Shown here in pieces: positions 35,347 through 38,050 of a stretch of 64,000 nt of DNA. A program made the position numbers and the translations under genes. Each line of letters opens with the position of its first letter. The first letter of the stretch is position 1. Under the pieces are notes generated by a model. It was not told the DNA's origin. It saw only the letters and a list, made by a program, of their open reading frames with translations, and made no database searches. Location of the stretch: the NCBI GenBank assembly GCA_020435335.1, contig JAGQZT010000027.1:1-64000 (forward strand). The letters run 5' to 3'. This stretch comes from Flavobacteriales bacterium. GTDB taxonomy: Bacteria; Bacteroidota; Bacteroidia; Flavobacteriales_E; Vicingaceae.

Positions 35347-35460
35347 GAAAGATGACCAAAACGGCAATTTTCAAACTTTGTTTTTTTTCACAACATTTCA
35401 ACATTTAAAATGCTCATGAATATTTTTCAAGAAAGCTACCAACCTTTTGTTGCTTTTGTG

Positions 35461-35480
35461 CGTATTACTGGAGTAATACG
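35461..35480. promoter_or_regulatory. Perfect 20-bp palindrome before the ECF sigma gene
   Basis: CGTATTACT and AGTAATACG form a perfect 9-bp inverted repeat around GG, 21 nt before the GTG start. No T run follows, so it is not a terminator. It could be an operator or an mRNA hairpin controlling translation start. Confidence 0.55.
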
Positions 35481-35501
35481 GAAAATAGCCGTTGTATCTC
35501 T

Positions 35502-36032
35502 GTGGAATTAGATGAAATCATAGCAGGTTGTTACCAGGGTAGCAGAAAGCATCAGGAAGCATTATATAATATGTATGCATCCAAAATGTTTGGCGTGTGC
35601 CTGACCTATACCCGGGATCGTGATCTGGCGCAGGATATTCTGCATGACGGATTCTTTAAGGTATTCAAGAAATTTGACAAATACGACAGCCAGTGGAACT
35701 TAAGTTCCTGGATCCGCAGAATTATCGTGAATACCGCCATTGATCATTTCCGGAAGTCGAACCGGATGACCAACATCGATTTTCAGGAATCGGTCTATCT
35801 GGCCGGAGGTTTTGACGACGTGAATGAAATCTCCAAGACCGATGATCTTTCGGAGATCATCAACATGCTGCCTCAGGGAGCTAAAACCGTATTCAACCTG
35901 TATACTGTTGAGGGGTACAAACATCAGGAAATTGCTGACATGCTCGACATCAGCGTAGGAACTTCCAAATCGCAACTCAGCAAGGCCAAGAGCGTATTAC
36001 GGGAATTGGTAAACAAATATTACGTGAGATAA
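35502..36032 (+). CDS. ECF-type RNA polymerase sigma factor
   Basis: The 176-residue protein has sigma region 2 (ALYNMYASKMFGVCLTY, then LAQDILHDGFFKVFKKF) and region 4 (VFNLYTVEGYKHQEIADMLDISVGTSKSQLSKAK), and no other domains. I use the GTG at 35502 because homologs begin with the same EELI-like helix. No in-frame ATG lies near that point; the ATG at 35512 is out of frame. A 20-bp palindrome lies just upstream. The next gene, 1 nt away, encodes a protein with the layout of a dual-membrane anti-sigma factor, which probably holds this sigma factor inactive. Its target genes are unknown. Confidence 0.92.
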   Translation: MELDEIIAGCYQGSRKHQEALYNMYASKMFGVCLTYTRDRDLAQDILHDGFFKVFKKFDKYDSQWNLSSWIRRIIVNTAIDHFRKSNRMTNIDFQESVYLAGGFDDVNEISKTDDLSEIINMLPQGAKTVFNLYTVEGYKHQEIADMLDISVGTSKSQLSKAKSVLRELVNKYYVR

Positions 36033-36033
36033 G

Positions 36034-37491
36034 GTGAAGGATTTTGACAACATAGAAGACTGGTACAGGGACGAGCTCGAAAATTTCAATGTAGAGCCCA
36101 ACAAAGACCTGTGGCAATCCTTATCTGACGATCTGGACGCGGAGATGACTTTAACCGATGAGAACATTGGTGACTGGTATAAGCGCGAAGTGAATAAACT
36201 CGAAGAACGTCCGGATTACACCGTCTGGGAAAAATTAGCCACCAAACTGGATACAGCTTCCGTATGGGACCGGCTGGTCGTGAGCCTGAACCGATACGAA
36301 CAATGGATCTGGTGGAGAAATACCATCCTGAAAGGCACTACCATCTTGTTGCTCCTTAGCGGAAGTTACTACACCTACAATCGGTATTGGAGCTCAGATA
36401 CCGGTAATGCCGACCAGCAAAAAGTTGCACATGAAAAATCCGGTGATACAAATCAAAATCAGGTAACCGCCACAACTTCTGCTAAAACTTCGGAACACTT
36501 AACGGTGCTGGCGAATACAGAACATAAAACGGAAAGCGGTTCTACGAAAGCGGAATCATTAAGCGTTCCGACCGAACGAGCCATCACCGAAGCTAAAAAG
36601 CAACTTACTCCGAAAAGTCAGGCAGCAGCTGCTCCGGTTTTATATGCTTCCCTGAACGGTTATACCAAAGAACGAAACATGGCGAGCAAGCAAGTTTCTT
36701 CATTGGGCAATTTCCAGGACTCAAACCGGGAAGTGGTTGACATTGACCGCCGTACCATTACAGAAAAAGATATTTCACACACCTACAGCGGATCCGACTT
36801 TCTGGTTAAGAAAGAGAAAAACAGAATCGTGTTTAACAGCAAGCGGTTCTCTTCCTACTTCATCTACGGTGTGTATGCCAGAAGATTCTATTTCGGCATG
36901 AATGCCGGTGTGAAGAAACAAGGATTGATCACCAGCTTGCGATCCAATGGCCCTTTAGCCGGGTACAATCAAGTGGAATACCTCGATTTCGGATCCAACT
37001 TCGGAGTTACTGCAGGCTATATTTTATCTGACAAACTGAACCTGGAAAGCAACATCAACATCCTTTCCACCTCAGGATATGAAAGACGATTCAACGGACC
37101 GGAAAATCATTTTAATGAAAAACTGGAATTGAAGTACACAACTGTTAGTTTGCTTGCCAAAAAAATGAACACCAAATCCACATTCGACAACAAGGTGTAT
37201 TCTACCAATTTCATTGGTGGTGTTTATGCCGGTTTCCTGAATACATCCTCTCATCAACTTAACGGCACCTCCGAAGATCTGGACACCTACAACAAGCAAG
37301 ACTTCGGTATCGTATTGGGCATCGAACAAGACCGGTACATCACCAAATCCTTCATCATTACACCCGGAATCCGGTACAACCAGGGCTTGATCAACATTGC
37401 CAACGACAACAATGCCTTCAGCTCTGCCCGGAATTTCTCATTTGAATTCAATTTGGGTGTAAAATACGTGCTGCTAAAAAAATCCAACTGA
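36034..37491 (+). CDS. Putative dual-membrane-spanning anti-sigma factor (Dma-like)
   Basis: The 485-residue protein starts with GTG one base after the sigma gene's stop, so translation is coupled. The N-terminus (~1-85) holds three related short motifs, DLWQSLSDDLD, TVWEKLATKLD and SVWDRLVVSLN, the first two each preceded by I-x-D-W-Y. One hydrophobic helix follows (about 95-115, TILLLLSGSYYTY). A Ser/Thr/Lys-rich linker (~118-270) comes next. The last ~215 residues (YGVYARRFYFGMNAGV to FNLGVKYVLL) form a predicted outer-membrane beta-barrel. This layout matches the Dma proteins described in Bacteroides thetaiotaomicron, which bind a sigma factor in the cytoplasm and reach the outer membrane. 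Here the role is inferred from layout and position. Confidence 0.75.
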   Translation: MKDFDNIEDWYRDELENFNVEPNKDLWQSLSDDLDAEMTLTDENIGDWYKREVNKLEERPDYTVWEKLATKLDTASVWDRLVVSLNRYEQWIWWRNTILKGTTILLLLSGSYYTYNRYWSSDTGNADQQKVAHEKSGDTNQNQVTATTSAKTSEHLTVLANTEHKTESGSTKAESLSVPTERAITEAKKQLTPKSQAAAAPVLYASLNGYTKERNMASKQVSSLGNFQDSNREVVDIDRRTITEKDISHTYSGSDFLVKKEKNRIVFNSKRFSSYFIYGVYARRFYFGMNAGVKKQGLITSLRSNGPLAGYNQVEYLDFGSNFGVTAGYILSDKLNLESNINILSTSGYERRFNGPENHFNEKLELKYTTVSLLAKKMNTKSTFDNKVYSTNFIGGVYAGFLNTSSHQLNGTSEDLDTYNKQDFGIVLGIEQDRYITKSFIITPGIRYNQGLINIANDNNAFSSARNFSFEFNLGVKYVLLKKSN

Positions 37492-37540
37492 CCTTCCAAC
37501 CCTTTTCCTGTTCTAAACGTTTTAGTCGTAGTTGCAAAGC

Positions 37541-38005
37541 ATGATGATAACTTTTAAGAACATACTCACGGCATTCCTGTTAACCGGGATATTCTCATTG
37601 CATCCCAGTCTGAACAAAGGACCACTGAGCTACCTGCATTACCTGGTTTACGGCAACCATGTTAACTTAAGCGTAAAGGATGTAGACAGCAACCGCTTAT
37701 CCATTAAATGGTCGTGTAACAACGATCAGTCCAGCTGTAAAGAATTGGTCATCATTGAAAACGGTAAGCTGATCAATGAAATCCCCTTTGAAGCGGGCGA
37801 TCAGCAGATTGCGGTATATTACAACGACCGGCTGGTAGGTGTACTCAAACAATTTAAGGCACAAAAAAAACAGGCACATCATTACAGCTTTAGAGTAAGT
37901 AGTGACGAAGACCACATCAATTTTTCGGGAGAGATCTCCGGTCCGTCGCCATCCGTATTCTCCCGGTCGATCAGCAAAAAGGACATTCTTCTGGCCAACC
38001 TATAA
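37541..38005 (+). CDS. Small exported protein of unknown function
   Basis: The frame opens at a TTG (37532), but the ATG at 37541 (or 37544) gives a better start for a signal peptide or membrane anchor (ITFKNILTAFLLTGIFSL). The product is about 154 residues. The rest is polar with beta-strand character and one cysteine pair (SCNNDQSSCKE) that could form a disulfide outside the cytoplasm. I recognise no family. It is the third gene of the sigma/anti-sigma run, 49 nt behind it and before a terminator, so it may belong to the same transcript or be a target of the sigma factor. Confidence 0.6.
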   Translation: MMITFKNILTAFLLTGIFSLHPSLNKGPLSYLHYLVYGNHVNLSVKDVDSNRLSIKWSCNNDQSSCKELVIIENGKLINEIPFEAGDQQIAVYYNDRLVGVLKQFKAQKKQAHHYSFRVSSDEDHINFSGEISGPSPSVFSRSISKKDILLANL

Positions 38006-38022: not shown

Positions 38023-38050
38023 AAAAAAGGCGCTCGATGAGCGCCTTTTT
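38023..38050. terminator. Bidirectional terminator
   Basis: A 12-bp perfect stem (AAAAAGGCGCTC at 38024-38035 with GAGCGCCTTTTT at 38039-38050) closes a GAT triloop. Ts follow on both strands. It separates the sigma locus from the convergent atpC. Confidence 0.9.

Follow-up and report, generated by a model that had tools for sequence, protein, structure and literature searches.

To our knowledge, the RseA/DegS/sigmaE system, in the form described so far, is missing from Bacteroidota, and how they report outer-membrane damage to the cytoplasm is the question raised by a three-gene run in the window analysed here, that is, the whole stretch of 64,000 nucleotides from a Flavobacteriales bacterium (contig JAGQZT010000027.1, positions 1 to 64,000). 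An ECF sigma factor gene is followed by a gene for a 485-aa barrel protein and a gene for a small exported protein. The original prediction set the limits of the run at 35461-38005 and compared the second protein with the Dma proteins of Bacteroides. The genes fall within these limits, while the start has to be moved, as the run opens with a promoter at 35441-35465 and position 35461 falls inside it. The locus is a real, conserved and lineage-specific variant of the Dma/Reo design. Its layout as such is less surprising than three other features: a dedicated third gene preceded by a sigma promoter of its own, a repeatable hairpin and exchangeable outer ends.

The sigma factor gene (35502-36032, + strand, as are all genes and protein segments below) encodes 176 aa, in which Pfam recognises sigma-70 regions 2 and 4 (Sigma70_r2, 9.5e-15; Sigma70_r4_2, 1.2e-13). 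Its start is a weak GTG here, GTG or TTG in the family, and holds an identical position in all relatives. The gene of the Dma/Reo-like anti-sigma protein (36034-37491) starts with GTG 36034, 1 nt past the sigma stop at 36032, exactly as first proposed from the sequence. The third gene (37544-38005) is followed by a strong intrinsic terminator read in the sequence (38023-38050, + strand), a perfect GC stem with A/T runs on either side, which closes the unit. The flanking genes are purL, divergent on the minus strand, and atpC/atpD, convergent on the minus strand. Among named organisms, the nearest relatives are Flavobacteriales MAGs, of which several carry the label Vicingaceae and one the label Vicingus serpentipes. 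The order of the three genes is unchanged in all relatives examined, namely all loci with full flanks, at identities of 75-86% for the sigma factor, 42-57% for the anti-sigma protein and 35-52% for the third protein, which argues that the arrangement is not due to chance.

The N-terminal part of the second protein contains three exact W-x2-L-x3-L motifs (W27-x2-L30-x3-L34, W65-x2-L68-x3-L72, and W78-x2-L81-x3-L85). The motifs were correctly called by the original prediction, but not the threefold repeat, which resolves into two tandem hairpin copies plus a juxtamembrane helix. Specifically, copy 1 of the anti-sigma helix-hairpin module comprises residues 5-38 (36046-36147; predicted helices 7-17 and 24-35) and copy 2 comprises residues 43-75 (36160-36258; helices 45-56 and 62-71), scoring 55.1 and 49.7 bits with a module HMM that includes the protein's own sequence. 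The module follows the consensus NIExLFKxxLxxxExxPxxxVWxxIxxxLD, and the two copies are equally strongly conserved in the family (0.59 and 0.61). The third motif lies in the juxtamembrane helix of residues 76-98 (36259-36327), where a predicted helix (residues 74-121) continues into the membrane helix; such a helix with a W motif is also found in three other loci, each with one module (L074, L076, and L080). When modelled alone by AlphaFold2, the N-terminal helices are of low confidence (pLDDT 44-67). We searched the 35-position module HMM against 393 genomes of the phylum (E<=0.01) and obtained matches in 86. An ECF sigma gene stands immediately upstream of 48/49 fetched module proteins across Bacteroidota, at a gap of -22 to +67 nt, and natural sigma/anti-sigma fusions of the Dma3 type were absent from the fetched loci. 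The module usually occurs once, but twice in the window and in L075, L081, L090, and L180, and four times in L182. Since the copy number varies in this manner, the repeated tryptophan motifs, thought at first to match no described member, represent a recurrent elaboration with similar duplications elsewhere rather than a unique trait.

The rest of the second protein extends outward from a single membrane helix at about residues 99-117 (36328-36384), a hydrophobic stretch that is a continuous helix in the model, which was built by AlphaFold2 with 20 relatives. It is followed by a disordered periplasmic linker of 137 residues (118-254; 36385-36795) with pLDDT of about 26-47 and a mean pairwise identity of 0.17, and by a conserved pre-barrel segment (residues 255-277; 36796-36864) in which 9/23 residues are invariant and the identity rises to 0.73. 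Residues 284-480 (36883-37473) form a predicted 8-strand OmpA-type β-barrel, the strands of which mostly reach pLDDT 80-95. The best match among solved structures in Foldseek is OmpA (9fzc_A, E=1.1e-9, probability 1.00), and the top matches are outer-membrane proteins, among them OmpA, OprG, Ail, OmpW, NspA, and OmpX. Sequence, AlphaFold2 model and Foldseek matches thus bear out the proposed order of one membrane helix, linker and C-terminal outer-membrane-type barrel. The N-terminus of the barrel must face the periplasm, and therefore its loops can be assigned to sides. The periplasmic half is the better conserved one (0.73 vs 0.49, loops and turns included; permutation p about 5e-5 with columns treated as independent), with the periplasmic turn TKSTFDNKV at an identity of 0.81, whereas the loops predicted to be extracellular have only 4-12 residues and form the least conserved part of the barrel (0.30-0.40). 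This pattern speaks for a signal at the periplasmic face, arising from a partner there or from assembly by the BAM machinery, rather than for a ligand outside the cell, although conservation of the periplasmic side is partly a general property of barrels.

A vesiculation phenotype is known for Dma1 and Dma2 only. The second protein shares with the Dma family a related N-terminal domain, a single membrane helix, a disordered tether and a predicted C-terminal barrel. Dma proteins are encoded beside sigma factors of group ECF21; for the sigma factor here, membership of the ECF class as a whole is shown. Two genomes of another family contain a sigma factor, a barrel protein, DUF4943, DUF4858 and nitronate monooxygenase (L205 and L206), the content of the dma2 region of B. 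thetaiotaomicron, where these three genes accompany the sigma/barrel pair (PMC13088901). A further sigma/barrel pair in the same genomes, next to a divergent NigD gene, is of Dma1 or EcfO-Reo type (L211 and L212); the names Dma2 and Dma1 were given to these loci by gene content and not by comparing them directly with the sequences from B. thetaiotaomicron. We scored their N-termini with a module HMM built without Bacteroides or Dma-type sequences, using 3000 shuffles as control. The Dma1/Reo-type N-termini gave 12.1 and 18.2 bits, reached by 0/3000 shuffles each, and the Dma2-type ones were weaker, at 8.6 bits (1/3000 shuffles) and 1.4 bits (28/3000). Comparison of whole-protein profiles, in which only two sequences represented Dma2, gave no significant match but paired the same tryptophan. 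The Dma-like layout originally proposed is supported, as are an outer-membrane-type barrel and an N-terminal module related to those of Dma proteins.

The known systems differ from this locus in definable ways. The Dma2 operon, known from B. thetaiotaomicron, also consists of three genes, and upon loss of dma2, das2 and the third gene (BT_1557, log2FC 6.0) are raised most strongly (PMC13088901). It shares with our locus the ECF sigma factor (35% identical between our sigma and that of the Dma2-type operon), an anti-sigma protein made of hairpin, membrane helix, tether and barrel, and a small exported third protein whose gene is a predicted sigma target. By contrast, the Dma2-Das2 operon as seen in L205 and L206 has one module copy instead of two and a barrel protein of 351-356 aa instead of 485; its third gene is DUF4943, unrelated to the third gene here, and DUF4858 and nitronate monooxygenase genes lie downstream. 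The Dma1-Das1/EcfO-Reo systems of Bacteroides and Phocaeicola share the sigma factor and a five-compartment anti-sigma protein in which the module is detected, but have one module copy and no third gene downstream, and regulate separate nigD genes, one of them divergent beside the sigma gene (PMC9308784, PMC13114119). These systems respond to outer-membrane stress: toxins that damage the envelope induce the P. vulgatus pair (PMC9308784), which has been proposed as an outer-membrane stress sensor (PMC13114119). By analogy, the same response may operate here. Single-module pairs of Flavobacteriia and other Bacteroidota (such as L142, L150, and L074) keep the order of sigma, module, membrane helix, linker and barrel, but have one module copy and different barrels (OMP_b-brl, OMP_b-brl_2), with no conserved third gene noted.

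Promoter conservation links the sigma factor to its putative targets. The ECF-type motif AACC-N16-CGT precedes the sigma gene as P1 (35441-35465, + strand), with motif and spacing kept in 20/20 aligned relatives at 29-38 nt before the start codon, and precedes the third gene as P2 (37498-37520, + strand) in 21/21 relatives at fixed spacing. Of the other motif spacings between 8 and 25, each is seen in 0-4 of the 21 loci, and shuffled sequences are expected to yield the motif at 0.06 loci. ECF promoters, including those of Flavobacterium psychrophilum, typically carry a conserved CGT in their -10 region (PMC9723704). As the same promoter type stands before both genes, the third gene is probably a direct target of the operon's own sigma factor. 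From the position of P1 and P2 we infer recognition by this sigma rather than by a paralog. We read these promoters as indicating autoregulation and independent expression of the third gene, and confine the proposed regulon to the operon. The strict pattern CAACCWTT-N13-CGTNTTA occurs at 46 sites in the 22 operon-bearing genomes of the family, 25/46 of them at the operon itself, and at 10 sites in the 24 family genomes without the operon. A wider regulon based on this pattern was rejected since the remaining sites, except one of a small RNA, are too near background, and a looser pattern was likewise near background outside the operon.

Several further elements were observed. A perfect dyad, CGTATTAC-TGGA-GTAATACG, read in the sequence, overlies the -10 element of P1 (35461-35480). 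Several relatives within the genus have it in perfect or nearly perfect form; it is missing in others and absent from P2, and is a possible operator for a further regulator. An Rfam search of the window segment returned sub-threshold matches only, mostly at the terminator. Elsewhere in the genus, sites resembling AACC-N16-CGT lie 50-64 nt before genes of small secreted Gly/Pro-rich proteins with PIDGG-hydrophobic-KK tails (L103, L115, and L139); three genomes show this, and the anti-sigma operon is missing from one of them. Additionally, five genus genomes including the host have the motif 9 nt before the start of orthologous genes with about 277 codons (L102, L106, L108, L112, and L137), too near for an ordinary leader. 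Ten loci of related genomes, outside the window, contain a conserved RNA candidate of about 110 nt (L105, L107, L120, L121, L122, L125, L126, L127, L095, and L214) that follows a promoter of ECF type (GCAACC-N16-CGTCT). Its core GTTTTAAAGTTAATTAGATAGGTAGTTA is invariant, and it has a stem formed by GGAGA/TCTCC and a terminator in which some changes are compensatory. It has no Rfam match and may be driven by this sigma factor or by the CHU_C-type paralog.

The third gene encodes a small exported or membrane-anchored β-sandwich protein. The original prediction was right about its presence. Relatives conserve a start at ATG 37544 (or 37541), but not the upstream TTG of the ORF list. The model shows a small all-β sandwich after an N-terminal hydrophobic helix (pLDDT 84.6), and the fold has no match among solved structures (PDB) at E<=0.001. 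The hydrophobic stretch is followed by conserved residues, LHPSLNKG. Signal peptides that are cleaved seldom show such conservation, so the protein may well be anchored in the membrane and face the periplasm. Several identities were considered and rejected: DUF4943 (PF16301; hhalign probability 0.1%, not significant), which was also not found in the host genome; a NigD relative, as no PDB fold matched at the same threshold; and a lipoprotein, as no cysteine lies near the N-terminus. A sequence search of solved structures returned mainly staphylococcal nuclease, at E 0.05-0.3, which we took as chance. The gene, which the original prediction could not match to a described member, has no relation to DUF4943 of the Dma2 operon and is a predicted sigma target.

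The distribution of the third gene follows that of the anti-sigma protein. The latter is present in 22/46 Vicingaceae genomes, in 3/16 genera, and a co-occurrence search found the third gene in exactly those 22/22 genomes and in 0/24 of the rest, related genomes that do not count as independent events. Among 295 genomes of the class, the third protein was found only in family members with the anti-sigma protein, save for one marginal match (E=0.002). Two genomes of carrier genera that are >95% complete (G027 and G012) lack both genes, which suggests that the two were lost together as a unit.

Taken together, these data quite probably describe a sigma/anti-sigma switch by which P1 and P2 are turned on, and we favour, with moderate confidence, the fuller account of a self-controlled envelope-stress switch of the Dma/Reo kind. 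In this scheme, the N-terminal hairpins of the second protein would hold the ECF sigma factor at the inner membrane, while its one membrane helix would lead into a tether crossing the periplasm and a small predicted barrel, presumably set in the outer membrane by BAM. An unassembled barrel or a disturbed envelope would inactivate the anti-sigma protein, by analogy most likely through proteolysis of the tether and release of the cytoplasmic part. Free sigma would then act at P1 on its own operon, rebuilding the brake, and at P2 on the third gene alone, making the third protein the main product of the activated state. A role for the second protein other than restraint, as a positive regulator or merely a co-transcribed outer-membrane protein, could be entertained because neither Pfam nor NCBIfam assigns this protein to a family; the NCBIfam "anti-sigma factor" model NF052375 matches four relatives but lies far under the cut-off in the two inspected, and was not counted as evidence. 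We regard such a role as very improbable, since the N-terminal module is common to Dma1, Reo and Dma2, which were genetically shown to restrain their sigma factors, and is linked to sigma genes throughout the phylum.

What the barrel senses, and what the third protein does, can be argued in more than one way. That the assembly state of the barrel is the signal is plausible, at rather less than even chances. For Dma2 of B. thetaiotaomicron, the barrel has been proposed as a receptor (PMC13088901), in which case an external ligand such as a glycan would bind the loops and a conformational pull through the tether would free the sigma factor without proteolysis. The tether is long enough to cross the periplasm, but its disorder and lack of conservation make it a poor force rod, and the short, variable extracellular loops contrast with the conserved periplasmic turn; we therefore consider a receptor unlikely. 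Proteolytic release is at least as likely as a signal passing along one intact chain, and no evidence of a protease site was found in the second protein. As for the third protein, its own copy of the switch's promoter makes it the likely output or effector of the switch. It might instead be a feedback or sensing subunit that acts on the periplasmic part of the anti-sigma protein, for example the pre-barrel segment or the periplasmic turns, and sets the threshold. Strict co-occurrence, the conserved pre-barrel segment and a sigma-type promoter would fit a CpxP- or RseB-like protein of this kind, but the analogous third gene of the Dma2 operon encodes an unrelated lipoprotein whose deletion left vesiculation unchanged (PMC13088901), and we give this alternative about one chance in three.

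The wider module family shows which parts of this design can be exchanged. Among 56 module proteins, 21 match OMP_b-brl_2 and 18 match OMP_b-brl (the counts may overlap), 6-7 terminate in a signal domain for type IX secretion (CHU_C or TIGR04131), and several further ones are short (about 225-300 aa) without a recognised outer domain. One of the type IX proteins is a paralog encoded in the host genome (L176, on G000:C8), which shares with our locus the AACC-N16 promoter type and the sigma gene followed by hairpin module, membrane helix and linker, but carries a type IX signal domain (PF13585, 1.8e-13) at its outer end in place of a barrel. We also observed sigma-linked module proteins with a type IX type B signal end (CHU_C or Bac_Flav_CTERM) in L065, L066, L067, L070, L181, and L083. 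In L180, L182, and L189, the sigma-linked protein has two or four copies of the hairpin module and lacks a recognised outer domain. No description of a type IX version of the anti-sigma protein was found in the literature searched. Replacement of the barrel by a secretion signal would give a secretion sensor built on the same plan, and proteins with CHU_C or Bac_Flav_CTERM ends are possible sensors of type IX secretion. More speculatively, and with considerable doubt, the module may define one phylum-wide anti-sigma family whose interchangeable outer ends read the envelope, the barrel reporting outer-membrane protein assembly and the type IX domain secretion; the Vicingaceae switch would then drive a β-sandwich protein from its own promoter, and possibly a small RNA, as a counterpart of proteobacterial sigmaE with RybB/MicA.

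The known Dma/Reo proteins were described from gut Bacteroidales, and the present locus places their design in uncultured marine and subsurface Flavobacteriales. It narrows the anti-sigma part down to a small hairpin that can be repeated, offers a promoter motif for regulon prediction, and singles out an uncharacterised small third protein as the conserved, likely output of a switch by which these bacteria may report outer-membrane damage to the cytoplasm.
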